Virus record (IMG/VR): IMGVR_UViG_3300008954_000321
Coordinates: 1 to 21,567 of that record
DNA: 21,567 bases
Source of the DNA: a virus
Direction: 5' to 3' (one strand)
How positions within the stretch are numbered: the first letter of the stretch is position 1; each line of letters begins with the position of its first letter. Of this stretch, positions 1,579 to 19,568 are shown piece by piece. The translations under genes were made by a program, and so were the position numbers. The notes below the pieces were generated by a model. The model had not been told where the DNA came from and did no database searches. It was given only the letters and a program-made list of their open reading frames with translations.

Positions 1579-2392
1579 CTTCGAAAATTTCCTTTACAAG
1601 TTGTTGTGTCTTTAACACAGTCATGATGACATTTTCACTGATTGTTTCATGAGAGTAGCCTTCAAGTCGTGATAAGACTTGTTGTGTCTTTTCAGTCATT
1701 GAGGAGTCAGCCTTAATCTCTTCTATTTGTTTAGCTTTTTTCAGCTGTTCTTTTAATCTACCTATCTCTGCGTTCAAAAACACTTTTAATTCCAGAGAGT
1801 TATCAGAAAAAGATGTTATATAGCGAGATAATAAACTCTTTTGCTCCTCAAGAAGTTGGTTGTCATATTTTTCATTAAATTTATTAACAAAGGTCTTATA
1901 TACAATGTTGTCAACTGGTACTTCAGTTTCATTTATTGTTGCTGTATTACACATATCGTTGATAATCTTAGTTTCAAGAATAACTTTTTCTTTTGGAGAC
2001 GAAGTATTGAACATTTTATTAATTGTAGCTAAGGCTTTATAGTTTGGTACAAAATTATTAAATACAGAAGGCGAGAGAGTCTTATTGACTACGTTTATAA
2101 TCTCTGTTTGTTTGATAAATAACTCATCAGGATTGATCATTCTTTTAGCTAACGAAGCTTCTTTCAATATCTTTTCACTAATTTCTTGCTCAAGCGATTG
2201 GTTTTCATAAAGCGATCTGTAACATTCCAAATCCTTAGTCAGCAACGATTCTGCACTAAAATGTTCTCTGATTACATCTACTGCTTTTTTGCTTCTCTCA
2301 TTATCATTTTTTAAAACAGCGACAGTGGCCTCTTTAATCAGGGCCTCATAAACAAATGCTGTATTACGTTTTTTGTTGTGCTTAGCTTTCAT
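1562..2392 (-). CDS. Helical protein directly after portal (possible head assembly or core protein)
   Basis: I set the start at the ATG at 2392 because GGAG lies seven bases before it. The frame is open further upstream, to an ATG at 2425, but that would overlap the portal gene by 44 bases. With this start the protein has 276 residues and overlaps the portal stop by 11 bases. The N-terminus is strongly basic (MKAKHNKKRNTAFVYEAL). The rest is almost entirely helical and charged, including a Lys/Glu-rich coiled-coil-like segment (about residues 205-235). No enzyme motif is seen. In T4 the genes right after portal encode prohead core proteins gp67 and gp68, so a core or scaffold role is possible, but I see no direct sequence match to either. 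Confidence 0.75.
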   Translation of the reverse strand: MKAKHNKKRNTAFVYEALIKEATVAVLKNDNERSKKAVDVIREHFSAESLLTKDLECYRSLYENQSLEQEISEKILKEASLAKRMINPDELFIKQTEIINVVNKTLSPSVFNNFVPNYKALATINKMFNTSSPKEKVILETKIINDMCNTATINETEVPVDNIVYKTFVNKFNEKYDNQLLEEQKSLLSRYITSFSDNSLELKVFLNAEIGRLKEQLKKAKQIEEIKADSSMTEKTQQVLSRLEGYSHETISENVIMTVLKTQQLVKEIFEDVGHN

Positions 2393-4346
2393 CTTTTTGC
2401 TCCGTTGGCTTTTCTTTCTTATCAAGATCTTCTAAAAGAACTGTTAGTGATTTATTCATCGATAACATTTTTTGTTCTTCTTTTTGCTCACTCAATGAAT
2501 AAATAGGCACTTCTTCTTCATAAATGCCTCTAGATAAAGATCTAAGTTCCGCGCCGCCGAGATTATTAGTTCGGTATGTGTTCGTTTCTGGTGTTGCTAT
2601 ACGTGCATAATTTCTTGTTCTGGCTCCGGCCGGCCGTGAATCTGTACGTTGGGGGTAATAAACTTTACCTTTGGCGCCGGGAGTTAGGCGAGGCGCGTCT
2701 CTCGCTCCGGGAGGGGCTGCCAAAAGTGTAGAATCATCTTCGCCGTCGGCGCCTTCTGGCTCGGCGTCGGCTTCGCCGCCGAGATCTAAATCTCCGCCGG
2801 CGTCACCGCCAAGATCTAAATCGCCACCGCCAGTATCGCCGCCAAGATCTAAGCCACCACCTCCGCCTGCTGCGCCGGCGGCTTGAGCCTCGGCAACGGC
2901 CTGAAGAGATGCATCCTGCTTGCGATCGTAAAACATCTCTCTCTGACATCTTGCAAATTCTTCGTGAGACATATTGAAAATGTTTTCGGTAACCCAGCGA
3001 CGAGAGAAATAGCCCTCGGTTGCGGAGCCGGCGATATCAAACTTAGCTTTCCAGTGCTCAATCTCTTGAAGTTCCGCAATCTTAGATGGGTTGTTTAAAG
3101 AAAGTTTGAAATTAATAAGGTCATCGCCGCGGAAACCAAGAGTATAAAGATGAATGATGCCGATTTTTTCAAGCTCATGTATAACTGTCCTTTGTAATCT
3201 TTGGACTGTTCGGGCAAAGCGAATGTCTTTTTGGGCTAACGTTGTCTTGTCTTCAGTGGCGCCTTCGCCCATAGAGAGATAAGACTGTGGGACCTTTAAT
3301 GCTGAAAATAATTTATCTCTTAAATATTTGATGTCATCAATTTCGGTTGTATTTGTGCCGCCGGCGATGTTCGAAATATCTGTAGCTGAGCCGGCGCGTA
3401 CGGGAATGTAATAGTCTTCTTCAATTGATAAAGGATTGTAACGCAAGTCAACTCGTCCAGTGTCTTTGTCTACGATTGAGTGTCTTTTAAGTTGTGAAAC
3501 AATCTTTTGCATATAGCCTTCAACATCTTGAGGCGGGATGGCGCCGACATCAATCTTGAATACGCGCCTTTCGGAAGATCTGACAATACGATATGCCATC
3601 ATAGCGTCTTCCATAAGTGTAAGTTGGCGCCAAATGCGGCGGGCGGGCTCCAGAACTGATGAGCCATAAGGGACATATTTATCGTTACCTAGAATACGAA
3701 AGTGTGCGACCTGCCAATTTTCAAAAGTCATACCAGCGGAATTCCATTGATATTGTACATAATTAGGATTAGTTGCATCTAGCCCTTCTAGTCTTTCAAC
3801 TTCCTGCAGTGGCAGCGCGATGGCTGACTGGACACCCATCTTATCATCAATGTCAAGGTAGAGCATGAAGTCACCATATTTACACATCGTGCGGCACCAG
3901 CCAAAAAGATTATATTCAATATTCAATATATTGTGATACAAAAGATCCAATACCGCCTTAATCTCTTCGTTTGTACAGTTGATGTTGAGCATCGGGCGCA
4001 AAGCAGAAAATGTTGTCATTTCATCAGCATAGATATCTAGCGACGAAGCGATCTCGGGCATATATTCCATCTGATCAAAATCAATATATCTCTCGGCACG
4101 TCGTTGATTAGAAATTGCATTAGCGGCAATTTGGTCTAACGGATTATAAGTCTGCTTCTTGAACTGCTGTCCAGAAGCAGTCTTGAATCTAGAGGCGTAT
4201 TTGTCTAGATGCTGTCTTCTAATTTTACGTCCGGATTGCGAACGATACGTAACTATCGGACCTGAAAAAAGCCTAGTTAGCGACTTAAATAACGATGATT
4301 GTGTGTTCGCAGGGTTTTTCCCTTTTCTCATATTTCTTGGTGCCAT
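2382..4346 (-). CDS. Portal vertex protein, T4 gp20-like
   Basis: This 654-residue protein forms the dodecameric portal ring at the head vertex, through which DNA is packaged and ejected. The strongest signature is at residues about 310-360: EDYYIPVRAG, then GGTN and EIDDIKYLRDKLFSALKVP. This corresponds to the gp20 segment with D-Y-W-[IL]-P-R, P-G-G-x-N and a [ED]-[ID]-[DE]-D-[IV] helix. The N-terminus is basic. The C-terminus (about 490-654) goes beyond the core fold: Ala/Gly-rich, with three LDLGG units at 499-524, then Pro/Arg-rich and acidic parts. It starts nine bases after the terminase stop, with only a weak GAGAA ribosome site, so coupling to terminase translation is likely. T4 itself has tail sheath and tube genes between terminase and portal; here they are absent from this spot. 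Confidence 0.93.
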   Translation of the reverse strand: MAPRNMRKGKNPANTQSSLFKSLTRLFSGPIVTYRSQSGRKIRRQHLDKYASRFKTASGQQFKKQTYNPLDQIAANAISNQRRAERYIDFDQMEYMPEIASSLDIYADEMTTFSALRPMLNINCTNEEIKAVLDLLYHNILNIEYNLFGWCRTMCKYGDFMLYLDIDDKMGVQSAIALPLQEVERLEGLDATNPNYVQYQWNSAGMTFENWQVAHFRILGNDKYVPYGSSVLEPARRIWRQLTLMEDAMMAYRIVRSSERRVFKIDVGAIPPQDVEGYMQKIVSQLKRHSIVDKDTGRVDLRYNPLSIEEDYYIPVRAGSATDISNIAGGTNTTEIDDIKYLRDKLFSALKVPQSYLSMGEGATEDKTTLAQKDIRFARTVQRLQRTVIHELEKIGIIHLYTLGFRGDDLINFKLSLNNPSKIAELQEIEHWKAKFDIAGSATEGYFSRRWVTENIFNMSHEEFARCQREMFYDRKQDASLQAVAEAQAAGAAGGGGGLDLGGDTGGGDLDLGGDAGGDLDLGGEADAEPEGADGEDDSTLLAAPPGARDAPRLTPGAKGKVYYPQRTDSRPAGARTRNYARIATPETNTYRTNNLGGAELRSLSRGIYEEEVPIYSLSEQKEEQKMLSMNKSLTVLLEDLDKKEKPTEQKDES

Positions 4347-4354
4347 TTAATTTC

Positions 4355-5938
4355 TCACTTTATAATCCACATATATTCTTTGTATAAATTTTCTGCATCT
4401 GACATTTTATCCATAACTCCATCTTCTTTGTATCCAATTTGTCCCTTTATTTTTGTATCAAAACTGGTTCTTGAAGTTATTATAGCATCCACAAAAGCTT
4501 TCTTGTAGTTCAAATCTCTTTGATTTGTCTGTAATGCAGTATCACGGACCCAACAAGCAATCGAGAGCGCCATAACTAAATCATCATTGTATCCTTTTAA
4601 AGCTTGGGGTTTTCCATTTGTCCAAATAAATGTTCTCAATTCATTTGCCAAACGCGACGAATATGTAGTAATTAGTTTGTTTCTTATAAACTCTTCTAAT
4701 TTAGCAACAACCAAGGGGCGAGTTTTTGAAGATGTTGTAAACCCGGGGACCGCTGAGTTCCTGTGTTCTGCCATGTGCTGCTCAATATATTCATGAGTTG
4801 ACTTAACAGAATAATAAATATTTGGGTACTCATAATCAATAAGTTTATCTAAAACTGTATATCCGATGCTGTTGTTCTCAATGACCATCATCGCGTTCCC
4901 GAACTCCCGGCCGACTTGATTTAATATATTCGCATATAAATCGGGAGTTGGCTTGCCTTGATATTCTCCCACAACCTGCATTGTCTCTAACTTAATAATG
5001 TGAAAAGTTGAATAGTCTGCTCCATCGCCGCGAGCGACATCTGCAGTCAACAAGTAGCTGCACGAAGGATCGTGCTCTTCCCAAATCCAGAAATTACGAT
5101 CAAACGCTGTTTTATATTTTGGCTCAACTATGTTGTCTGTAATCCATTCAAGAGCATCTGGATCGATAACAGTCTCGCCGGATGTGTTGAAGTTACACTC
5201 CAACTCTTGTGCAATTTGCCTGCGTGACATATTTTTAGTTTCTTTTTTGAACCACTCTTCGTCACGTTCAGGGTGCACATCCCACATTAAAGTTGTTAAT
5301 TTGAAATTATTTTCATTTGTTTCAGCGCCGACGCAAGTTTTATGGAACCAGTTACCGACACCATTCGGGGTTGATATTGCTATACAGCGACCACCAGTTG
5401 ACAACGTGGGATACAAACCAGTCCACAGATCTTCAAGACCATCAATGTGTGCAGCCTCGTCAAGAACCAGAAGAGACAGCGCTTCAGAGCGGCCGGCGTC
5501 ACCAGATGTTGAGGCTGCTTTGATGGTTGAGCCATTTGACAATTCAAACGAGGTGCGGTTATCCGTAGAGATAGAAGCGATGCGGATCCAGTCTGGTAGA
5601 TTTTTCATGATGCTTTTAACTTTGCGGACAAGGTTCCCCGCGGTCTCAAATTTGGTAGCCATAACCAGAATAGATTTATCGCGGTGAAACAACATCATCC
5701 ACACAATATAGCCAGCGGTTAACGTAGAGATACCTAATTGCCGGCCCTTATTGATGACGTTAAAACGATAGTCATTAAAATCGTCTAATAAATCATCTTG
5801 ATAGTCAAACGTATTAAAAAGAATCAGCCCGTGCATCGGATGAGATATACGGGCATACGTTTTAAGAAAGTACGATGGATCTTTTCCGCACTTAACTACT
5901 TCTTTTAATATTTCTTTCTTTGTTAATTTGAAACTCAT
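4355..5938 (-). CDS. Terminase large subunit, T4 gp17-like
   Basis: This is the DNA-packaging motor with ATPase and nuclease domains, 527 residues from the ATG at 5938. That start forms an ATGA overlap with the upstream stop. The frame stays open upstream to 6028, but using that start would overlap the previous gene by 94 bases. The ATPase part has a P-loop-like KGRQLGIST (64-72), Walker B LLVLDEA (156-162) and a coupling-type segment AISTPNGVGNWF (187-198). The RNase H-fold nuclease part has acidic residues in TADVARGDGADYS (D300), VIENN (E354) and GYNDDLVMA (D452/D453). The usual P-loop lysine before Ser/Thr is replaced by Ile70, with Lys64 or Arg66 as candidate substitutes. The family assignment is firm. 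A small terminase subunit is not recognised in the window. Confidence 0.95.
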   Translation of the reverse strand: MSFKLTKKEILKEVVKCGKDPSYFLKTYARISHPMHGLILFNTFDYQDDLLDDFNDYRFNVINKGRQLGISTLTAGYIVWMMLFHRDKSILVMATKFETAGNLVRKVKSIMKNLPDWIRIASISTDNRTSFELSNGSTIKAASTSGDAGRSEALSLLVLDEAAHIDGLEDLWTGLYPTLSTGGRCIAISTPNGVGNWFHKTCVGAETNENNFKLTTLMWDVHPERDEEWFKKETKNMSRRQIAQELECNFNTSGETVIDPDALEWITDNIVEPKYKTAFDRNFWIWEEHDPSCSYLLTADVARGDGADYSTFHIIKLETMQVVGEYQGKPTPDLYANILNQVGREFGNAMMVIENNSIGYTVLDKLIDYEYPNIYYSVKSTHEYIEQHMAEHRNSAVPGFTTSSKTRPLVVAKLEEFIRNKLITTYSSRLANELRTFIWTNGKPQALKGYNDDLVMALSIACWVRDTALQTNQRDLNYKKAFVDAIITSRTSFDTKIKGQIGYKEDGVMDKMSDAENLYKEYMWIIK

Positions 5939-6645
5939 ACATTTTTCAAGGCCGCCAACACTTCTTCGCGATTGACGAGATCTCCTTCGCCGTCCAATAT
6001 AATTATTTTTTCGATGCCATCTTTCCAAGCCATATCCACAAGCTGAGCATCGGTCATTTCTCCGAAGCCGTGAGGATCTAGAGCATCATATTTTTCTTCG
6101 TCACCAAAGCCGAAATGATAATCTCCGACTTCATTTAATACTTCTTGAATTATATATTTAACTTCTCTGAAGCCTATTTCGCGGCGTTGAGGTTCTATAT
6201 ATTCGGGAGCAAGCTTTTCAATAACGGCTGTAAATAAATCTAACATCTCTTCTGGTGGCAATTCTTGTACCAAGGCTGTGACTTGATCTTCTAAAGGTGG
6301 GCCGGCGCGATCTTGGAAACCACTAACGTGGCTCTCTGGTGCGTCGTCTGATGGAATGTCTGAGGGTCCATATCGTTCTGGCGCGTCGTCTGAGGAAATG
6401 TTATCAGCGGGGAAGGGCATCGTCTGTGCTGCTCTGTCGGCATTTGGATCCGCTGGAGCACGGCCATATCTTACTTTCTTGCTGTGTCCGTAGTCATCTC
6501 CGAGCCAAGCCGGTTTGGGCCCTTGCTTCCGGATCCATGCCAACATTTCCTCTGCCTGCTGTGGGCTCAATTCTTCTCCAAGAGTCTCTTCTTTTATGTA
6601 CTCTTCTGCGATAATTCTCTTTAATTGCGATTTTGTAAAATTCAT
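5935..6645 (-). CDS. Tagged acidic protein upstream of terminase (type-A N-terminal tag)
   Basis: I do not recognise this 236-residue protein. It opens with MNFTKSQLKRIIAEE, one of six copies of the type-A tag in this window, with Ile-Ala-Glu at residues 12-14. The middle is Pro/Asp-rich and probably disordered, with two SDDAPE units. A helical segment follows (about 130-180), containing a second tag-like run YIIQEVLNE. The C-terminus (about 190-236) is compact and acidic, with the segment IEKIIILDGEGDLVNREE. It starts through an ATGA overlap with the upstream gene and ends in an ATGA overlap with terminase. That is the slot of the small terminase subunit in T4 (gp16), but the tag and the disordered middle argue against that role. 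An internal virion protein is more likely. Confidence 0.7.
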   Translation of the reverse strand: MNFTKSQLKRIIAEEYIKEETLGEELSPQQAEEMLAWIRKQGPKPAWLGDDYGHSKKVRYGRAPADPNADRAAQTMPFPADNISSDDAPERYGPSDIPSDDAPESHVSGFQDRAGPPLEDQVTALVQELPPEEMLDLFTAVIEKLAPEYIEPQRREIGFREVKYIIQEVLNEVGDYHFGFGDEEKYDALDPHGFGEMTDAQLVDMAWKDGIEKIIILDGEGDLVNREEVLAALKNV

Positions 6646-7041: not shown

Positions 7042-7590
7042 TTACGATTCCTTTTTTCTAGAATCATTCTCCGGGCGTTTTCCGCCTTTACCATTCCACC
7101 CACCTTGATCGAGGAACTTTTTAAAACTATCTTCAAGGCGATCTTCAGATGGTTGGCTGTAAGCCATGTTTTCATCTAAACCACCAATTTTGTAGTGCAT
7201 CTTGGCTGTCACCCAGCTTCTTACTCTGGAAGAGTTTTCGACGCGAACATCAACTTCGCCCTCTTTGGTAAGGGTAACTCCGGTGCCTGTGATCTTCTTA
7301 TATTCTTTCTTCAGAAACTTAACAACATCCGCAAGGCGTTGCTCAATCTCTTGCTCAAAACCATTAGCATATACTTCACGAAGCTGTACTTCGGAGTGGT
7401 AACCTAGACAAAGCATGTTTCCATAAAAACTAACATTAAATCCGTCCATCACCCTTTTGTCAATCAGTGGACGCCCTTCATCGCGCTGGAGCCCGGGCTT
7501 CAAGGCTTCTCCGTTTTCGTCCAATGCTCCATCATAAGCATTAGCTGCGGCCTGCGATAAGCCTTGTATAATTTCGTAAACTGTTGCCAT
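7042..7590 (-). CDS. Conserved hypothetical protein (MATVYEII family)
   Basis: This 182-residue protein begins MATVYEIIQGLSQAAANAYDG. The order appears to be a helical, Ala-rich N-terminus, a mixed region with FNVSFYGNMLCLGYHSEV (about 64-80), a Lys/Glu-rich helix (about 86-113), beta-type segments around EGEVDVRVENSSRVRSWV, and a basic, Gly-rich tail. It carries no tag, unlike the genes on both sides. The start overlaps the upstream stop as TAATG with GAGGAG in front. I have the impression of related proteins in marine T4-like phage clusters, but no function is known to me. A virion or morphogenesis role is inferred only from its place between tagged genes and the terminase-portal block. Confidence 0.7.
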   Translation of the reverse strand: MATVYEIIQGLSQAAANAYDGALDENGEALKPGLQRDEGRPLIDKRVMDGFNVSFYGNMLCLGYHSEVQLREVYANGFEQEIEQRLADVVKFLKKEYKKITGTGVTLTKEGEVDVRVENSSRVRSWVTAKMHYKIGGLDENMAYSQPSEDRLEDSFKKFLDQGGWNGKGGKRPENDSRKKES

Positions 7591-8183
7591 TACTGGTCTC
7601 CTCTAACGTTCTTGTAATATAAATAGTGTTTAACTGAAGAAAGGTAATCAGAGGCTTTGGTGATTTTAGCTTGTACCCACGCATCCAATTCATCACCATC
7701 TTGAATCATTTGTTCTAACTCTGACGCATATTCGGCTGCTCTATATAATTGTGACTTGGCCATTCTACCTTCGTCGTGTTCATCGCTGTGTGTCATTTGC
7801 GGTGGTGGTTCTGCAGAAGGCAACGGGTCGCCACAACCCTCTGTTGTGACCGTTTGCTGCGTTTCAGGTTCATTTTCAGCGCTAGAACCGCCGGGGTGCA
7901 TTCTCTTATCGAGCAAATTAAAAACAATTTGGATTACGTTTCTCTTAGTGTTTAAATCCATACCCTCTTCAGCAGCTAATTGAAGTATATATTCGTAAAC
8001 CTTAGTTGCGATATTTCGTTCTTGCGGGCTAATCTCACCAGCAGTATCCTTCGTAGCTGAGCGGGTTGCTGCTGTGGCTTTTCCAACCCCAGCACTAGCG
8101 CGATCTTTCTTAACATCCAAAGGACTCTGTTCTTCAAGTGCCTCTAAAATTGCCCTCTTGATATCATTTTTCGTTATCTTCAT
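7590..8183 (-). CDS. Tagged protein with a conserved C-terminal helical module
   Basis: This 197-residue protein starts MKITKNDIKRAILEALEE, a variant of the type-A tag with Ile-Leu-Glu at residues 12-14. A Lys/Ala/Thr-rich linker (about 24-50), a helical segment (about 53-94) and a Pro/Gly-rich disordered stretch follow. The C-terminal module (about 138-190) contains GRMAKSQLYRAAEYASEL and WVQAKITKASDYLSSVKHYL. I remember close versions of this last module (AKSQL, WVQ-x-K-[IL]-TKA-x-DY) as a frequent domain in marine myovirus proteins, but without a proven role. The gene overlaps the zinc-ribbon gene by 20 bases and the next gene by one base. It is likely a virion component. Confidence 0.75.
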   Translation of the reverse strand: MKITKNDIKRAILEALEEQSPLDVKKDRASAGVGKATAATRSATKDTAGEISPQERNIATKVYEYILQLAAEEGMDLNTKRNVIQIVFNLLDKRMHPGGSSAENEPETQQTVTTEGCGDPLPSAEPPPQMTHSDEHDEGRMAKSQLYRAAEYASELEQMIQDGDELDAWVQAKITKASDYLSSVKHYLYYKNVRGDQ

Positions 8184-11242: not shown

Positions 11243-11482
11243 TTATATCAAACCTTCATCGCGCAATATGTCTAAATCGCCGCGATCCAACTGAGCAGTC
11301 ACCGCAAAAGTTTGTCCGTTAGGCAAAACTAAATCAAGCGTCAAGTTACCGCTCATGTTAATAACGACATCACCTTGAGCACTTGCAACCAGTGATCCTC
11401 CGTGACGAGCCTTTCCAGTCATATCAAGTTCGCTCAATTCTTTTTTTATTATTTCTTTAAGTTGGGATTTACTTAGTTTCAT
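11243..11482 (-). CDS. Small tagged protein with a beta-rich C-terminus
   Basis: This 79-residue protein starts MKLSKSQLKEIIKKELSEL (type-A tag). Here the Leu/Ile-x-Glu triplet is shifted: Leu16-Ser17-Glu18. After the tag comes a Gly/His loop (GKARHGGSLVASAQGD), strand-like segments DVVINMSGNLTLDLVLPNG and TFAVTAQLDRGDLD, and a short end. The fold after the tag looks like a small beta domain. No motif is recognised. AGGAG precedes the start, and that ribosome site lies in the 24-bp repeat. The protein is a good candidate for a small internal head cargo, by inference from the tag. Confidence 0.72.
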   Translation of the reverse strand: MKLSKSQLKEIIKKELSELDMTGKARHGGSLVASAQGDVVINMSGNLTLDLVLPNGQTFAVTAQLDRGDLDILRDEGLI

Positions 11483-11488
11483 CTTGGT

Positions 11489-11512
11489 TCTCCTATGTTG
11501 CTAATCCATTCA
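11489..11512 (-). repeat. 24-bp direct repeat, copy 2
   Basis: This is identical to 10065-10088. On the minus strand it holds the last five codons and stop of the FtsZ-like gene plus the ribosome site of the 79-residue tagged gene. It is most simply explained by a short recombination or gene-insertion event between the two gene ends. Confidence 0.9.
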
Positions 11513-12632
11513 TACTTAGTATCGCAATCAATCCGGGCACATTCTTTCTGACATAAACGCCAGAGAAAAGTGTCTCGCACCGACCGCCGACATAAGCGAT
11601 TGCCGACTCAATATTCTTGCTGACTTTTGGATCAGCCACCATCTCTTCCGACACAACCAGCACTAACGAGCCGGCCTTTGCCTTTCCCTTGGGGGGAGGA
11701 CATGCAGAACGATTCATGCAGTTATGTAGGATCACCGATCCAAGCTTTCCAGTATTTGGATCCTTAATCATGGTTGAGCCTAAGAAGGCACGACCGTCAT
11801 TGCCCAAGCATGTTTCCAGATCTTTACTATCAAAAGATTGGATCGGTGAATCCTCGGTGGAGAGTTTTAACACTTGGGCAAGTGACTTAGCAAAAGTTGT
11901 GTTGGCGACAGGATACATGCCGAGCATGCCGATTCTGCCGCGAAGTAAGCGTGTGGCTCGTTCGTTGTCGAGAACGATATGCGGATACTTGGCAACATCG
12001 TTTGCCAGCGTCAACGCATTACGAGCGATTGTGGGGTTAAGATTTTCTTGTGCTGTCGGCCATGAGACTATGTAAACGACCTTGCCGCTCGACTGCACAG
12101 AGCGCATGTAACGCTCAAAGACAGGGTGCAGAGCGGTAACACTACTACCGGTGCCACCGCCACCACCAGCAAGGACGAACAACCAATCAACCTTACCGAG
12201 TTTGATACGCAGGGCATCTTCAACAATCGCACCATTTTGACTTAAAACCTCTTTTCCATATTCTACGTTTTTTCCAATCCCGTCTGAGTCGGGGATGAGG
12301 ACAACGTGATCCTCTTCTACATTCTTAGGAATGTCTTTACCTGTTGAATTTACGAGTAGCGTCTTATTGAAACCAAGTTCAATAAACGCATTCGCCATTT
12401 TGTTGCCTCCACCGCCAACACCGACAAAACCAACATTGATAGATGAGGGGGCGGTATTCTCGGGAAGAAGATCTTCGTCAGAGTATTCCATCTGTAATCC
12501 GAAGTCCTCAACCATACCGAAGTCTTCTGCTTCTACTGATTCGTGGTAGCTGTCTTTTTCCTGCGCGAACGCGGGAGGTGGTTCTGCGGGAGGCAGAAAA
12601 TCAAATTCGTTGTTATCGTTTTCGTCTGACAT
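11493..12632 (-). CDS. FtsZ/tubulin-like GTPase
   Basis: This 379-residue protein belongs to the tubulin/FtsZ superfamily of GTP-driven filament proteins. Residues 1-63 form an acidic, Pro-rich, probably disordered extension. The GTPase domain then shows an N-terminal strand and glycine loop, INVGFVGVGGGGNKMANAF (65-83), and the tubulin signature loop AGGGGGTGSS (155-164). A T7-loop-like segment SFDSKDLETCLGNDGRAFLG follows (266-285), keeping both aspartates (D268, D271) needed for catalysis at the filament interface. The C-terminal domain runs to about 370 with no long FtsZ-type tail. Phage tubulins are known (PhuZ in nucleus-forming jumbo phages; TubZ in phage-plasmids). It is not clear which this is closest to. 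Genes for tagged proteins flank it on both sides. Roles may include placing the phage DNA or heads in the cell or blocking host FtsZ. Confidence 0.88.
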   Translation of the reverse strand: MSDENDNNEFDFLPPAEPPPAFAQEKDSYHESVEAEDFGMVEDFGLQMEYSDEDLLPENTAPSSINVGFVGVGGGGNKMANAFIELGFNKTLLVNSTGKDIPKNVEEDHVVLIPDSDGIGKNVEYGKEVLSQNGAIVEDALRIKLGKVDWLFVLAGGGGGTGSSVTALHPVFERYMRSVQSSGKVVYIVSWPTAQENLNPTIARNALTLANDVAKYPHIVLDNERATRLLRGRIGMLGMYPVANTTFAKSLAQVLKLSTEDSPIQSFDSKDLETCLGNDGRAFLGSTMIKDPNTGKLGSVILHNCMNRSACPPPKGKAKAGSLVLVVSEEMVADPKVSKNIESAIAYVGGRCETLFSGVYVRKNVPGLIAILSMNGLAT

Positions 12633-12640
12633 AATAATTC

Positions 12641-13078
12641 CTAATTGTTAAACGACTGATATATCAATATACCAAGTGCAGCCGCCATCAAACCTGCCGC
12701 GGCTGGGATACCGAGAGTTGTTGCCGCGCCCACTGCACCGGCACCGACCATACCTATTTTACCCATGGCGATCATGCCTCCGGTTGCCGATGCTATGCCC
12801 ATGGCGCCTGCAGCAGCAGGTAAGCTTGCACCGACCATATCGCTGTGTTTCTGTTCTGCACTTTTATATTCTTGCATCGTGCCTTGCGCGTCTTGGACCG
12901 CTGCTTGGACTTCTGGGTCTTGTTTTGCTTTGTTTACAAAATCCATAACGGCAGGGCTTTGGGATAAGGCTTGTGCAAGCTGTTCTGCTTGTGCCATCTT
13001 ATCCCCACCTTGTTCCTGCATGGTTGCTTCTATCTCTTCCTTAATAATGTTCTTAAGTTGTCTCTTGGTTACTTTCAT
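12641..13078 (-). CDS. Tagged protein with a glycine-rich hydrophobic C-terminus
   Basis: This 145-residue protein begins MKVTKRQLKNIIKEEIEA (type-A tag, Ile-Lys-Glu at 12-14). A hydrophilic helical part rich in Gln and Ala follows (about 20-82). The last 60 residues are strongly hydrophobic and rich in Gly and Ala: GAMGIASATGGMIAMGKIGM and VGAGAVGAATTLGIPAAAG, ending AALGILIYQSFNN. Small residues every few positions resemble glycine-zipper or pore-forming helices. With a head-targeting tag and a membrane-active end, it is a good candidate for a protein that is injected with the DNA and inserts into the host membrane. A simple membrane anchor is the alternative. AGGAG lies upstream of the start. 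Confidence 0.75.
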   Translation of the reverse strand: MKVTKRQLKNIIKEEIEATMQEQGGDKMAQAEQLAQALSQSPAVMDFVNKAKQDPEVQAAVQDAQGTMQEYKSAEQKHSDMVGASLPAAAGAMGIASATGGMIAMGKIGMVGAGAVGAATTLGIPAAAGLMAAALGILIYQSFNN

Positions 13079-13089
13079 TTTAAAATCTC

Positions 13090-16000
13090 CTATTGATTTA
13101 CTCTTGCGTATCCGTCTTTCTTTTCAATTACGATTTGCATGTCAACACAATCTTTGAGCGAGTCAAGGTGCGAGATCAACAAAACGTTCTTAAAATACAC
13201 TTTAATTAGTTCCAAGATCCTAATAAAACCCTCCATATTTTCTTCGTCTAAAGCGGTACCCGGTTCGTCAAGGACAAATATGTCGCTCTTAGGCAGCGAT
13301 GAAACACTCAAAAGTGCCAAGCGAATTGCCATGGCTGCCATCGTTTTTTCTGCTCCGGATGCCATCTCAATTGGGCGCTCATTATACTGTGGGTGTTTGA
13401 TGAATATATCAAATTTATTTCCTGACGTCTCAAAGAAAATTTCGAAATCTACAATATTGGCTAATACTTTAGCAATTTCTGAATTAATAACAGGCATTTT
13501 CTTTTTAATTATGTCGTAGGCAATGCCGTTAGAGTGCATACAACGCATAAACAGATCATAAGCTGAGAATTCTTTTTCCAACTGAATATATTCTGCTTTT
13601 AATTCTTTCAAATTTTCAGATTGTTGTTCAAATGAGCCCACTTTTTTATAAAGGCCGAGGGTCTTATCTGTTTCTATTTTGATACTTTGTTCCATGTTAA
13701 TAATGTTCTGTTCATAATCTTCTTTGTCGTTCAGCAGTTTTTCAAGATTTTCAATAGCTTCTTTGTTTTGTTCATACACCATCTTTTTGTCGGTCAAATC
13801 AGAAACAGAGTTATTGATTCTCTCAAGGGCGATATTATTTCTTTCAATACCCAATTTTAAATCATTAACCAAGATCTCTGTTTCTTGTTTTTTGTTCTGC
13901 AGTTTCTTATATTTTTCTATATGATCTGTAACGATCGTGGGGGCCAGAGCGGTCAAGGTTTTTTCTAATTGACCAACTTCGGTTTTCATTTCAGGTATGG
14001 TCGCGACAGCAACATGTGCATCTTTTATAAATTTGCACGTAGGATATGATGTGCCACAAGGTATATCATCTAGCAATCGCTCTTTGCTTATTGCAGAATC
14101 TAACAAACTTGCAAACTCAGATAGTTTATGGCTAGTTTCAGCTATTTGAGTCTGCTGCGTAAGTAAAGCATCATAATCAAGCTGCCCCATAAGAACAGTT
14201 ATCTTATCGTATCGGGCTTTTTCATTTTTGAGAGTGGTTGAATCTTCAATTATCTTATTAGACAATAAATTAATCTGTTTTTGATTCTTTTCCAAGGCAC
14301 GATAAATATCAAAGATGTCAATTGCCTCGGCCGGAATGTCTGATATTTGCTTGTCAACTTCTGTCAATTTTGTTTTTTGCTCATTTAAAGCTTTTTCTTT
14401 AGATTTTACAATCTTTTCTTGTTTTAAAATTTGATTTTTACAGTTTTTCAGATTTTTGATCGCTTCTTCAATTTCGGTCTCATACTCTCTATCTTCTAAT
14501 TTTTTAAGATATGCTTTCGCCTCAATTGATTCTTCCTTCGCTAATTTAAACTTTTTGTCAAATATTTCTAAGTCTAAAAACTTGGCAATGATTTCCTTAC
14601 GACGCGTGGAGCCTTCATCAATGAACGCTAGCGAGCCATGTTGTGAGGCTAGTGATGATACATTGAAATCCTCAATTGTACCAAAGTGTTTACGTATGTT
14701 CGCATCTGTGTTATTGCGCGTTAGGCCATTTAAGGATGTTGTTTCGCCGGTGGCCCGATTGTGAACCTCAAAATTTAACTCAGTCTTAGCTTCTTGTGTT
14801 TTCTCTCCCTTCAGCGTCTTAACATATTTCGTGGCTGTTCTTTCAATCGTGTAAAAATTGTCATTAATTTGAATTTCTAATTTGCCGCGGCCATGGTCTT
14901 TATTTTGATTAATTACATTAAGATTTTTACGCTCATTCTTAGAGGTTGTATTAAACAATGTCCACAAAGCAGCATCTACAACAGAACTTTTACCTGAGAA
15001 GTTTTTGCCAAATATACCAACGATTCCATCCAATGTATCAAAACAAACATTATTTTCTTCACCATAATTAAACAAATTATCAAATTCAAAATTTATCAAC
15101 TTCCAATTAATATTACGAGAAACATCTTCCTCTTTTTCAATGATCACATTGTATTTTCTATTTAACTCACAAACACTTTCTAATATTTCATCTGTAATAT
15201 GGTAATCCTTCAGATATTCGCTGATCAATTCTTCTTGAACTTTGATATCACGTAGATTTTCGGTCTTAAGTCCATCTGTTAGTTCTTCTACATTTCCGCG
15301 CTCGCCAGAGGCCCTGTTAAGAAATGAAATGCTCTCAGGCTTAAATCTATGCTTCGCAATGCCTACTGCTCGTTTCATCACGTCCAGAGGCAGATTGTTG
15401 TTACTCACCAATCGCAGGCGGGCCCCAGATGGTATTTTGGTGTTCTTTGGCATACGCCCTTTGCGCGTAAGCTCAATTGTGATGAACGCCTTGGGGTTTA
15501 CAAGAGAAACATGCCGGGTATTAAAATTATTTTTATCTTCAATATCCCAAATTAAGTAGCCTTTATCGTTGCTCTCGCCATGATTCTGCTGTACTAAGCT
15601 GCCCGGGTATCTTGCTTTTCCGTCATTGTCAATCTTTTGGTTAGTCTTGTGAATGTCGCCCAAGAGTGCATAATCGTATTTCTCAAGGGTTTCCATGTCG
15701 ATATCGCCATGAGTCATCATCCAGCCGGTGTCGGTGACAGAACCAACCACAGAGCCATGATAGAGGGCAATATTCGTGCGGTCTTCTGGTAGTGTTTCTT
15801 GCCAGTTTTCTGGATCAACAATGGATAGCACGTGTAAATCAATTCCGTCGGCAACCTCAACAACATCTGAATATTTGTGAAAGTGAATATTGGGGTGTTT
15901 CAGGTTATCCACGATGGGGCTTATCGCATCCAATCTTCCGCTATTTTTAAGATTCATATCATGATTACCAAGAATTATATAGTATGGCGCGATGTCTGCC

Positions 16001-16206
16001 AAATTAACAAACAAGTCGCTCATCATACGAATCGCCTCGGGGCTTAAATCAAGCTTAGTGTGGAAGGTGTCACCAGTATTAACGATAATATCTGGCTTCT
16101 CTTCTCTTAGTTTTTCGTATAATTGTTTGAATACCTCTCGGTATTCCTTATGATACTTTAATTTTCGGACATGGATATCCGATACATGCGCAATCTTAAT
16201 GCCCAT
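13090..16206 (-). CDS. Fused Mre11 nuclease and Rad50 ATPase (SbcD-SbcC, T4 gp47-gp46 type)
   Basis: One 1038-residue polypeptide holds both subunits of the Mre11-Rad50 complex, which resects DNA ends for recombination-driven replication and repair. The Mre11 part (about 1-340) has the metallophosphoesterase motifs D10-x-H12, NTGD at 43-46, LGNHD at 79-83, H150, THGDID (165-170) and GDIH (183-186). The Rad50 part starts near 368 (WKLINFEF), with Walker A GKNFSGKSS (400-408), coiled coils about 555-715 and 740-880, and a zinc-hook-like C717-x6-C724. It ends with an ABC signature ASGAEKT (949-955), Walker B VLDEPGTALD (978-987) and a histidine switch SHLD (1012-1015). In T4 and bacteria these are two genes. 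All key residues appear intact in both halves, and nothing suggests a frameshift. AGGAG precedes the start. Confidence 0.93.
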   Translation of the reverse strand: MGIKIAHVSDIHVRKLKYHKEYREVFKQLYEKLREEKPDIIVNTGDTFHTKLDLSPEAIRMMSDLFVNLADIAPYYIILGNHDMNLKNSGRLDAISPIVDNLKHPNIHFHKYSDVVEVADGIDLHVLSIVDPENWQETLPEDRTNIALYHGSVVGSVTDTGWMMTHGDIDMETLEKYDYALLGDIHKTNQKIDNDGKARYPGSLVQQNHGESNDKGYLIWDIEDKNNFNTRHVSLVNPKAFITIELTRKGRMPKNTKIPSGARLRLVSNNNLPLDVMKRAVGIAKHRFKPESISFLNRASGERGNVEELTDGLKTENLRDIKVQEELISEYLKDYHITDEILESVCELNRKYNVIIEKEEDVSRNINWKLINFEFDNLFNYGEENNVCFDTLDGIVGIFGKNFSGKSSVVDAALWTLFNTTSKNERKNLNVINQNKDHGRGKLEIQINDNFYTIERTATKYVKTLKGEKTQEAKTELNFEVHNRATGETTSLNGLTRNNTDANIRKHFGTIEDFNVSSLASQHGSLAFIDEGSTRRKEIIAKFLDLEIFDKKFKLAKEESIEAKAYLKKLEDREYETEIEEAIKNLKNCKNQILKQEKIVKSKEKALNEQKTKLTEVDKQISDIPAEAIDIFDIYRALEKNQKQINLLSNKIIEDSTTLKNEKARYDKITVLMGQLDYDALLTQQTQIAETSHKLSEFASLLDSAISKERLLDDIPCGTSYPTCKFIKDAHVAVATIPEMKTEVGQLEKTLTALAPTIVTDHIEKYKKLQNKKQETEILVNDLKLGIERNNIALERINNSVSDLTDKKMVYEQNKEAIENLEKLLNDKEDYEQNIINMEQSIKIETDKTLGLYKKVGSFEQQSENLKELKAEYIQLEKEFSAYDLFMRCMHSNGIAYDIIKKKMPVINSEIAKVLANIVDFEIFFETSGNKFDIFIKHPQYNERPIEMASGAEKTMAAMAIRLALLSVSSLPKSDIFVLDEPGTALDEENMEGFIRILELIKVYFKNVLLISHLDSLKDCVDMQIVIEKKDGYARVNQ

Positions 16207-16354: not shown

Positions 16355-16383
16355 ATTATAACACGCAGATGTTGACTATGCAA
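16355..16383 (-). promoter_or_regulatory. Candidate sigma70 promoter before the membrane peptide and nuclease fusion
   Basis: On the minus strand TATAAT (16355-16360) is a perfect -10 element. The -35 position, 17 bases away, is TTGCAT (16378-16383), with only TTG matching the consensus. The element overlaps the end of the 326-residue gene. Transcription would start about 10-12 bases before the 39-residue gene, just ahead of its ribosome site. Confidence 0.4.
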
Positions 16384-17356
16384 GCTTTTTCTTTCGGTTT
16401 TTGTAATTTCGCCAAGATACTCGGCTTTCTTTTAGGCTTGCAACGCGTTGCGTCGTCTTCTGAATTAATTCTGGGTTCAGTTCTGTATCGGGGGTTGGTT
16501 CTATCTCGCCTTTTAAGTTATTGAATTCTTCCAAACTCATACCGTCGCCATAATAATAGTTCTTATAAAGATCTGATTTTGTTAGGCCGGAAAGAGGCAT
16601 TTTGTAATCGTCAGGGATTTCATCGAAAGGAACATATACCAAGTTTTGTTGTACATTTTCGCCATCGATCTGGAGCATTGCCGATGGAACGCCCGGGTTG
16701 GAACTTATAAAGCCGTGGGCGCCCAATTCGCTAGCGTCACTAAACGGAAACGATTCGGGAGAAAAGTCATTAAAAAATTGCTTGTGTGGGCCCGGAGCAG
16801 CATCTCCTTTAACATTATAGGCGCCGGCGAGAGCATCGGGTGAGTCGGCTGCTTGGAGATAAAGCTTGTTTACTTCATATTGGGGAGTTCCCGCTTCTTT
16901 ATCCATGGCCACTTGAGCCATAACTGACCATTCAAGAGGCAAGACTGCTTCGCGATGGTTTTCTGGATTTGTTGGGTATGGTAATGTTTGTGTATCTGTT
17001 GTCGACCACATCCACGCTTTAAAATTGCCGGCCTGTTTGTTTAAGTCTTCCGCGCTTTTCTCGATGGTGGAAGATTTCTCAATATTTTGTTGTGTTACTG
17101 TTTCTCTGTCGGCGGCTAGCGCATCTTCGTGATCCGAAACTTGCCCCTGTATACCCAATGCGGTGCCGCCGAGTGCTGCCGCGCCGCCGATCATATTTCT
17201 AATATTCTTCCTTCGTGCTTTACGCTTAGCAGCATCCCAATCTGCTTCTATCTCAAGCAAATATTTATCAAGTTCTTCAGCAATGATTTGTTCTAAAAGA
17301 AGGCTCTTGACCTCTTCTAAAACAATCTGTCGAAGTCTTGCTTCTGTGATGTTCAT
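16376..17356 (-). CDS. Large tagged protein, 326 residues
   Basis: I do not recognise this protein. It begins MNITEARLRQIVLEEV (type-A tag; Val-Leu-Glu at 12-14, so the Leu/Ile-x-Glu rule holds only loosely) and continues as an amphipathic acidic helix (LLLEQIIAEELDKYLLEIEA). A basic segment KRKARRKNIRNM comes next, then a Gly/Ala hydrophobic stretch IGGAAALGGTALGIQG (56-71) that may span or enter a membrane. After a helical linker, residues about 115-300 look like a folded domain rich in Pro, Asp and aromatic residues. The tail is basic (NYKNRKKKLA). It follows the primase stop by one base. The domain order, tag, helix, hydrophobic stretch and globular part, fits an injected virion protein, but this is inference. 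Confidence 0.7.
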   Translation of the reverse strand: MNITEARLRQIVLEEVKSLLLEQIIAEELDKYLLEIEADWDAAKRKARRKNIRNMIGGAAALGGTALGIQGQVSDHEDALAADRETVTQQNIEKSSTIEKSAEDLNKQAGNFKAWMWSTTDTQTLPYPTNPENHREAVLPLEWSVMAQVAMDKEAGTPQYEVNKLYLQAADSPDALAGAYNVKGDAAPGPHKQFFNDFSPESFPFSDASELGAHGFISSNPGVPSAMLQIDGENVQQNLVYVPFDEIPDDYKMPLSGLTKSDLYKNYYYGDGMSLEEFNNLKGEIEPTPDTELNPELIQKTTQRVASLKESRVSWRNYKNRKKKLA

Positions 17357-17357
17357 A

Positions 17358-18296
17358 TTAAACCGCCGATAGTAAATCTAGCAGTAAATAGTTGTCTCTA
17401 TCGATAAAGGACGCTTTATTCTTTCTTTCAAAAAACACTTCTTTCGGCATTGAGCCTACATCTTCGTACCCAGAAATATCAATCTTGTAAAGTTCAATAT
17501 CATATCGCAAAAGCATTTCAATGATCCTTCTCTCTTTGTTGGCTGCGTCCGGATCAAGTGCGACGTAGATTGGGGTGTCGTTTCGTACAATCTTTCGTAA
17601 TAAGTCGGATCCGGGTCGTAAGGTTGAGCCCAATATAGGAACAGCATTTCCGGCGACCAATGCATCAAATACTCCTTCAACCAATACTAGGTCTCTATTC
17701 CAGTCAATATATAGGTCGTTAAACACTATATCCTTGGATGCTCTTGGGTTTTTATACTTATAGGAGTCCCCAGTATAGGATCTCGCGATAAAGTAGCTAC
17801 AATCGCCATCTTCGTCAAAAGACGGTATAATGATTCGGTTGCGATATTCACCACTAAAACAAAAACCAATCTTCCACTTAATTATGTCTTCTTTTGTAAG
17901 TCCTCTTTTGAGTAAATATTTGAGGGCGTAAGCACCTGTTGCTGGGACTTTGTTTGTGCAGAGTGTTGTGAATTCTTCTGGTAATTGTATTTTTTCACTC
18001 CTTGTTTCAGGCTCATGTTCATCAAAGAGTTCATTAAACTTTTCCAAGTCTGTCCGAACTGTAATTTCGTCCCAGCGCTGGAGTTGTGTAAAAGAACCAA
18101 AACGCCTAATAACACGCCTAATATTACGACCGCGATAATCACAAACCCAACACTTAAAAGCATTTTTATCCAAATTAATAGAGAACTTACGCTTGTGATG
18201 ATTGCATGCAGGACACGTGAAAAGAAGTTCCTGTCCTTTGCCAATGTTGTTTCCAAACGTTTCATATAATATTCTCTTTGCTTCTTTCTTATTCAT
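17358..18296 (-). CDS. DNA primase, DnaG-type (zinc finger plus TOPRIM)
   Basis: This 312-residue protein makes RNA primers for lagging-strand DNA synthesis. A zinc-binding domain at the N-terminus has C28-x2-C31 and C49-x2-C52. A central segment RIIIPSFDEDGDCSYFIAR (154-172) matches the part of DnaG before the TOPRIM core. The TOPRIM core has LVLVEGVFDAL (203-213, with Glu207) and YVALDPDA (244-251, with Asp248 and Asp250). Phage T7 and bacterial primases share these motifs. It lacks a helicase domain and is shorter than bacterial DnaG, so a separate helicase is expected outside this window. It has its own promoter-like element upstream and GAGGGC before the start. Confidence 0.92.
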   Translation of the reverse strand: MNKKEAKRILYETFGNNIGKGQELLFTCPACNHHKRKFSINLDKNAFKCWVCDYRGRNIRRVIRRFGSFTQLQRWDEITVRTDLEKFNELFDEHEPETRSEKIQLPEEFTTLCTNKVPATGAYALKYLLKRGLTKEDIIKWKIGFCFSGEYRNRIIIPSFDEDGDCSYFIARSYTGDSYKYKNPRASKDIVFNDLYIDWNRDLVLVEGVFDALVAGNAVPILGSTLRPGSDLLRKIVRNDTPIYVALDPDAANKERRIIEMLLRYDIELYKIDISGYEDVGSMPKEVFFERKNKASFIDRDNYLLLDLLSAV

Positions 18297-18370: not shown

Positions 18371-18949
18371 TTACTGTGCTTGTAAGGCGTCAATAATTTG
18401 GGCCTTAGTAGACTTTGTGTTGACCGGCAAGCCTCGCGACTTTGCAACTTCAAGAAGTTCAGACTTCTTCATACTAACACTCCAGTCAGTGAATGTAATA
18501 TTGTCTTCGTCTGTTGCTAAGCCTTTAGTAACGCTCATCAATTCGATCTCAAAAGTTAACTCTTCTCCGGCTAGCGGATGATTAAGGTTTAATACAACCT
18601 CGTCTTCTAAGATCTCGTGAATCTTGGCTAAAAAAGTCCCTTGGGGACCATTTCCCTGAACTACCTCCCCTACCACAAAATCAAAACCATCACCAAAAGC
18701 TGATTTCGGTGCTGGACGAAGTGCGTCAGGGTTTATAGGTCCGTAGGCTTCTTCTGGGGAGAGCTGGACTACAGTCTTTTCCCCCTCGGTCATGCCGACG
18801 ACGGCATTCTCAAAACCTTCAATCATGGTTCCGGTACCAAGATTAAAATTTAAAGTTTCGCCACGTGTGCGTGAGTTGTCAAATTCGGTACCATCAATCA
18901 AGGTACCTCTGTAATGGACACTAACTCTGTGTCCTGTTTCTGCTTTCAT
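18371..18949 (-). CDS. FKBP-type (SlyD-like) prolyl isomerase with a C-terminal SAP-like domain
   Basis: This 192-residue protein joins a peptidyl-prolyl isomerase or chaperone to a likely nucleic-acid-binding module. Residues 1-70 have the FKBP opening VSVHYRGTLIDGTEFDNS and MIEGFENAVVGMTEGE. An insert-in-flap region follows (about 71-120), as in SlyD. The FKBP fold resumes with NLNHPLAGEELTFEIELMSV (121-140), typical of SlyD. After a linker, residues 159-192 (SMKKSELLEVAKSRGLPVN, then a short helix KAQIIDALQ) look like a SAP or HeH/LEM-like helix-extended-loop-helix. The SlyD metal-binding His-rich tail is missing. The gene has its own promoter and a strong terminator, so it is expressed alone. 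It may help fold phage proteins, perhaps at DNA. The FKBP part is firm and the SAP part likely. Confidence 0.9.
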   Translation of the reverse strand: MKAETGHRVSVHYRGTLIDGTEFDNSRTRGETLNFNLGTGTMIEGFENAVVGMTEGEKTVVQLSPEEAYGPINPDALRPAPKSAFGDGFDFVVGEVVQGNGPQGTFLAKIHEILEDEVVLNLNHPLAGEELTFEIELMSVTKGLATDEDNITFTDWSVSMKKSELLEVAKSRGLPVNTKSTKAQIIDALQAQ

Positions 18950-18996: not shown

Positions 18997-19014
18997 CAAA
19001 GATTTGTTTGTCAA
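18986..19014 (-). promoter_or_regulatory. Sigma70-like promoter of the FKBP-SAP gene
   Basis: On the minus strand a perfect -35 TTGACA (19009-19014) is separated by 17 bases from TATCTT (18986-18991), a four-of-six match to TATAAT. The -35 overlaps the stop codon of the RuvC-like gene. The expected start of the transcript is about 30 bases before the FKBP ATG at 18949, which has AGGAG in front. Confidence 0.72.
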
Positions 19015-19568
19015 GAACATTCTGTGTTATAGCCGGCTTGGGCTATTATAATAGCATCTGCTCTATCGTAAGATTCTGGCTTAGGGTTTCCGTGCCTTGT
19101 ATATTCAATTTTGAATGCTGGCTCGTTTTCTAATAGATGTTTTAATACTACTTGCTTAGCCTTTTGTCCGCGTGGGACTTTAATTCCAGCTAGCTTTCTA
19201 GCGGAGGTGGCGCCGAGAAATTTGGGCTTAATTTCAAAAAGCTCATAAACAATCCAAGACACAATTCCATTAAATTTTTGCAATGTAGCCATAGTTTTAG
19301 CGGACGAACCGCCAGAATTAAAAAATGTAAAAGGCTGCTCAATATAAATATGTTCAATGGGATATTCAGAATTTCCAAGACGTCCTACATCTTCGTTGTT
19401 ACACTGATACATTTCAAACAAATCTAGCAGCTTCTCTTTTATAGCTACAGTTTTATCAAACACATCTTTGTATTTTCTTAGATCAATTGAATCATAAAAA
19501 ACTAATTGACCTTCAGCTACGATAGCAAAACCAGTAATACTGGTGCTAATATCAATTCCCAAAACCAT
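19011..19568 (-). CDS. RuvC-like nuclease (Holliday-junction resolvase fold)
   Basis: This 185-residue protein has an RNase H fold with acidic residues in RuvC order: D6 in MVLGIDISTSITGFAIV, E77 in HIYIEQPF (73-80), and D168 or D171 in ESYDRADAIIIA (165-176). The LGIDxS-x-x-x-TG opening and the final DRADA-II-A helix are typical of phage and bacterial RuvC-type resolvases, which cut DNA branches before packaging. The central region has KTMATLQKFNGIVSW and a basic stretch GIKVPRGQKAKQVV, which probably contacts DNA. T4 uses the unrelated gp49 for this job. The protein may replace gp49, but substrate specificity cannot be read from sequence. It is followed by the FKBP promoter. Confidence 0.85.
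   Translation of the reverse strand: MVLGIDISTSITGFAIVAEGQLVFYDSIDLRKYKDVFDKTVAIKEKLLDLFEMYQCNNEDVGRLGNSEYPIEHIYIEQPFTFFNSGGSSAKTMATLQKFNGIVSWIVYELFEIKPKFLGATSARKLAGIKVPRGQKAKQVVLKHLLENEPAFKIEYTRHGNPKPESYDRADAIIIAQAGYNTECS

Follow-up and report, generated by a model that had tools for sequence, protein, structure and literature searches.

The window, i.e., the whole stretch of 21,567 bases that was analysed, corresponds to the entire IMG/VR virus record. It carries an open reading frame (ORF) in which an Mre11 (SbcD) nuclease is followed by a Rad50 (SbcC) ATPase (Table 1). This ORF, uninterrupted between 16206 and 13090, lies on the minus strand, and the plus strand is rich in stop codons there; the preliminary description of this DNA had given the same limits without naming the strand.

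Table 1. Coordinates in the window of the fused gene, its domains and motifs, and two neighbouring genes.
Feature	Coordinates	Strand	Residues of the fusion protein	Basis or remark
Mre11-Rad50 (SbcD-SbcC) fusion gene	13090..16206	-	1-1038	1038 aa; coordinates include the stop codon
Mre11 calcineurin-like nuclease core	15472..16206	-	1-245	Metallophos, invariant motif columns, PDB sequence and fold matches
Region where the Mre11 capping domain is expected	15262..15471	-	246-315	Name inferred from position
Helix-loop-helix where Mre11 has its Rad50-binding domain	15130..15246	-	Helices 321-335 and 339-359	AlphaFold2
Linker (actual joint)	15109..15129	-	360-366	About 7 residues; AlphaFold2
Rad50 N-terminal ATPase lobe	14572..15108	-	367-545	AAA_23/SMC_N, AlphaFold2 model
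Walker A GKNFSGKS	14986..15009	-	400-407	Family alignment
Antiparallel coiled coil	13537..14571	-	546-890	Arms of 175 and 160 residues
Hook tip CGTSYPTC (C-X6-C, type A)	14035..14058	-	717-724	Both Cys kept in 53/53 type A members
Rad50 C-terminal lobe	13093..13536	-	891-1038	Signature SGAEK, Walker B, D-loop, His switch
DnaG-type primase	17358..18296	-		phrog_47, 5e-44; two genes upstream of the fusion, same strand
RuvC-like Holliday junction resolvase	19011..19568	-		phrog_159, 3e-12; same strand as the fusion

The presence of both proteins in a single frame, as had been proposed, was confirmed by profile searches, since both domain sets were matched within this one ORF: Pfam returned Metallophos (residues 3-186, 3e-13), SMC_N (376-1013, 4e-10), and AAA_23 (378-621), and PHROGs returned the SbcD-like phrog_100 on residues 1-472 (6e-34) and the SbcC-like phrog_77 on residues 304-1037 (6e-53). 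A sequence search of the PDB gave SbcD/Mre11 for the N-terminal half and Rad50 for the C-terminal half. The nuclease core displays the phosphoesterase motifs of Mre11/SbcD (DxH, GD, GNHD, H, and HxH) in the forms DIH, GDTFH, GNHD, H150, and GDIH, with D10/H12, D46, N81/H82, H150, and D184/H186 as motif residues; all of these are invariant in an alignment of 64 family members, including Asp184, which stands for the first His of the usual GHxH. As this His is usually a metal ligand, the activity of the fusion protein could differ. The Rad50 half has the complete ATPase layout, with Walker A, signature (residues 950-954), Walker B (D980/E981), D-loop (L986/D987), and His switch (H1013) distributed over two lobes separated by an antiparallel coil, whose arms, measured between fixed landmarks, fall in the short class. 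In the same 64-row alignment, the core residues of the motifs are fully or almost fully conserved in both halves.

An AlphaFold2 model built from the family alignment reached a mean pLDDT of 83 with a pTM of 0.48, so the relative placement of the domains is uncertain. The end of the capping region, residues 299-314, is modelled with low confidence (pLDDT about 40); residues 367-376 form the first Rad50 strand. The joint had been placed near residues 340-368, where Mre11 normally has its Rad50-binding helices; it does adjoin these helices, but they are kept intact (321-359), and the joint comes after them. The segment around the joint (residues 318-371) hardly varies in length: it measures 54 aa in 89 of 100 aligned proteins, 55 aa in 10, and 52 aa in one. 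Structure searches of the PDB gave matches to MRN and SbcCD components. In a library of viral structures, the best full-length matches were fusion-length proteins of Tupanvirus, Harvfovirus, Yasminevirus, Terrestrivirus, and Catovirus, followed by those of the Tenacibaculum phages pT24 and PTm1, which were recognised by their fold only and not from the sequence matches in phage records.

The novelty that had been suggested for this arrangement does not hold, since Yoshida, Claverie and Ogata described a Mre11/Rad50 fusion in Mimivirus R555 in 2011 (PMC3175470), as well as in Bacillus phage 0305phi8-36, plasmids, bacteria, and eukaryotes, argued that fusion is compatible with the MR structure, and inferred that R555-like genes are abundant in aquatic viruses, probably phages. 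In these other fusions, the helix-loop-helix is kept and the interdomain linker is predicted at about 9-12 residues (PMC3175470). Our protein belongs to this R555 kind and is, for that reason, mostly ordinary: it has both full domains in one chain with Mre11 first, as well as the helix-loop-helix and a linker slightly shorter than predicted. Two substitutions reported for R555, i.e., a His in GDxxD and an Asp for His206 (PMC3175470), correspond here to GDTFH and GDIH. R555 differs by its length (1351 aa) and by its owner, as the virus studied here is an uncultured, tailed aquatic phage with a T4-type portal and terminase. Our literature search for work following up R555 found nothing on phages other than the 2011 paper.

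In order to place the fusion among its relatives, we scanned IMG/VR, where 378 stretches encode related proteins. In all of the best 80 of these 378 loci, which come from many metagenomes and show 51-95% identity, a single ORF spans the joint, and a second scan with a Microcystis phage protein as the query added 20 more distant loci with the same fusion. Among the matches listed from 50,697 phage records, the clear fusions were those of Microcystis phage Mel-JY01 and of a 735-kb uncultured phage. The protein of Mel-JY01, a cyanophage isolate (WWT39521, in PP395634), is encoded by a single fused ORF, 30% identical to ours along its full length and with a primase close upstream as here, but it has a C-X2-C hook and is labelled “AAA domain containing protein”. 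Long joined tblastn matches to Pseudoalteromonas phage XG4, marine virus AG-345-L05, and the Melnitz phages turned out to come from split genes.

Mre11 and Rad50 are also split in the phages of T4, T5, SPO1, and Kyanoviridae kinds that we examined, and the statement that T4-like gp46/gp47 and E. coli SbcCD are separate proteins was confirmed. Whether the fusion is common in T4-like phages has two answers: isolated T4-like phages have split genes, and the uncultured lineage studied here, whose portal is of the T4 type, regularly has the fusion. T4 gp46/gp47 and the SbcC/SbcD pairs of other phages share the domains and the presumed role of the fusion but use two genes; in all but one of the pairs examined the hook is C-X2-C, and most have GHxH, except for T5-like phages, whose GDxH carries the same Asp as D184. 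E. coli SbcCD shows the same catalytic architecture, in two genes and on the canonical branch, and its SbcC (about 1048 aa) has a longer coil than the fusion.

In a quick tree with long branches, computed from the columns of the heads and the nuclease, with E. coli SbcCD as the outgroup and R555 left out, the 22 true fusions group together in a clade that excludes the split phage pairs (SH-aLRT 99). A single origin of these 22 fusions is thus supported rather than proven, given the way the tree was built. In each of 11 contigs of 112-203 kb, not known to be complete genomes, exactly one SbcD-like and one SbcC-like match were found, both within the fused ORF; as these are the only such matches, the fusion probably stands in for T4-type gp46/gp47. 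The 735-kb phage, with an additional SbcC-like place, is the exception. The closest relatives of the portal protein of the window (2382..4346, minus strand) are those of Microcystis phage Mel-JY01 (40%) and Flavobacterium phage immuto (39%), which indicates a lineage with hardly any cultured members.

Bacterial and archaeal MAGs yielded 12 matching loci. Several are complete fusions located on short contigs, which are probably phage contigs binned with cells. Locus L121 (4956..7049), on a 2.8-Mb chromosome of a WOR-3 MAG, encodes a relative 56% identical over residues 4-629; this ORF has only 698 codons and would be either a phage remnant cut short or an assembly chimera. Altogether, long contigs now show what the 2011 paper inferred from short reads (PMC3175470): tailed phages whose portal and terminase are of the T4 type, and whose contigs reach about 200 kb, are major carriers of aquatic Mre11/Rad50 fusions, and they seem to have no MR enzyme other than the fusion.

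With good confidence, we interpret the protein as a single-chain Mre11-Rad50 (SbcD-SbcC, gp47-gp46) end nuclease serving recombination-dependent replication and repair. The observations behind this reading are the fusion itself, the conservation of the motifs and of the joint, and a second MR pair missing from the large contigs; its oligomeric state, catalysis, and role in replication are what we infer from them. Two chains would dimerise via their Mre11 cores, their ATPase heads, and the hook tip into an M2R2-like particle, in which the Rad50-binding helices and the short linker would hold each nuclease beside its own ATPase. ATP binding and hydrolysis would gate the access of the nuclease to DNA ends or hairpins, and the resulting 3′ single strands would be used in recombination-dependent replication and in the repair of the phage genome, a pathway to which the neighbouring primase and RuvC-like resolvase would also belong. 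In T4, gp46/gp47 resect DNA ends for recombination-dependent replication and repair (summarised in PMC3175470). By analogy, and given its domain content and these two neighbours, the fusion protein most likely has the same end-resection role.

It had also been claimed that the fusion fixes the ratio of nuclease to ATPase at one to one. This argument is weak, as the known MR complexes, made of separate proteins, are already 2:2, and fusion by itself leaves the stoichiometry unchanged. What the fusion does is secure co-synthesis and keep nuclease and ATPase tethered. With its 1038 residues in one chain, the protein lends itself well to structural studies of the MR nuclease.

One has to consider that SMC-like ATPase-nucleases also occur in defence systems, and our structure searches indeed gave fold matches to Lamassu and JetABC, so that the fusion might be an anti-defence or host-DNA-degrading nuclease rather than a replication or repair enzyme. 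We consider this improbable, as these matches are limited to the generic SMC head and the gene adjoins primase and RuvC-like genes, besides being the sole MR copy in the 11 large contigs. It is very improbable as well that nuclease and ATPase function as two chains, after cleavage of the fused protein or separate initiation: flexible residues (299-314) do lie ahead of the helices, but the length of the joint is nearly constant, and a search around the joint of 100 family members revealed no conserved internal start codon accompanied by a Shine-Dalgarno-like sequence. Finally, an artefact in which a lost stop codon or a frameshift joined two adjacent genes has a genuine precedent in Listeria phage LMTA-57, but misassembly and chance are excluded here by the single ORF in the 80 best and 20 distant loci, by the near-constant joint, and by the annotation of the fusion as one CDS in the cultured phage Mel-JY01.

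LMTA-57 itself was rejected as an independent fusion. Its single ORF of 1009 aa (L005, 2542..5571; annotated as “recombination exonuclease”) results from one base missing in an A-run by comparison with its near relative LP-083-2, in which the genes are separate (350 and 627 aa), and it reads through the intergenic stretch and a ribosome-binding site. LMTA-57 was placed beside the split LP-083-2 in the head and nuclease tree, and the one-base difference is probably a sequencing error or a recent frameshift.

The preferred reading, a single-chain end nuclease, leaves the hook to be considered. A full Rad50 with a hook had been announced; the motifs are present, but the hook is C-X6-C and not the usual C-X2-C, so that the coil tip lacks a CXXC zinc hook. 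Pfam Rad50_zn_hook matched neither the fusion protein nor the relatives tested, whichever their hook type. Zinc binding nevertheless appears plausible from the sequence, as two invariant Cys remain at the tip. Among 84 non-redundant members, 53 have a type A hook (PCG-X5-C-x-F-I, C-X6-C) and 31 a type B hook (YDPxCxxC, C-X2-C), with both Cys invariant within each type. On a family tree built without the coil and hook columns, the hook type changes at least 10 times, nine of these changes being forced by well-supported branches. Hook types thus swap while nuclease and ATPase remain up to 97% identical: in the pairs L017/L019 and L008/L018, the heads are 95-97% identical and the coils about 50%. 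The arms also fall into classes, 182/167 or 175/160 residues in type A and 179/173 or 172/166 in type B, which differ by exactly 7 + 7 residues; the class changed at least four times in the marine set, and such a paired loss of a heptad on both arms is what an antiparallel coiled coil requires.

A replacement of the whole coil was considered as the way hooks are exchanged and is not clearly supported, since the protein nearest by its coil often has the other hook; perhaps only the tip is exchanged, or a fast evolution of the coil may be the simple explanation. Yeast Rad50 functions with an SMC-type hinge in place of its hook (PMC6969161), which makes a natural exchange of the tip plausible. 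In limited searching, we found no literature on a C-X6-C hook or on natural tip exchange, and the pattern may be new. The exchange pattern is itself observed; that the hook tip is a natural exchangeable part, perhaps with separate dimerisation specificities that would separate the enzymes of co-infecting phages, is a doubtful idea, speculative as regards these specificities. Be that as it may, the two interchangeable hook types constitute a natural experiment on what Rad50 needs from its hook.

Some other genes of this phage deserve a mention. An N-terminal peptide like MKITKSQLKQIIKEE is common to many unrelated proteins of the window and of the related loci L006-L085; in the window, it is found on the minus strand in the ORFs at 12641..13078, 16376..17356, 5935..6645, and 7590..8183 and also at 11243..11482. 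The pattern occurs in 107 of the 1338 ORFs of at least 100 aa (window and related loci) versus 2 after shuffling, and the peptide resembles a T4-type capsid-targeting sequence ending in a putative I-x-E protease site. On the same strand, 11493..12632 encodes a tubulin/FtsZ-like GTPase (Pfam Tubulin, 5e-8) in a phage with a T4-type portal, and its sole match in the 50,697 phage records is a weak one, to Bacillus phage G. An FKBP-type prolyl isomerase (Pfam, 1e-22), unusual for a phage, is encoded at 18371..18949, again on the minus strand, with a weak SAP-like match at its C-terminal end.
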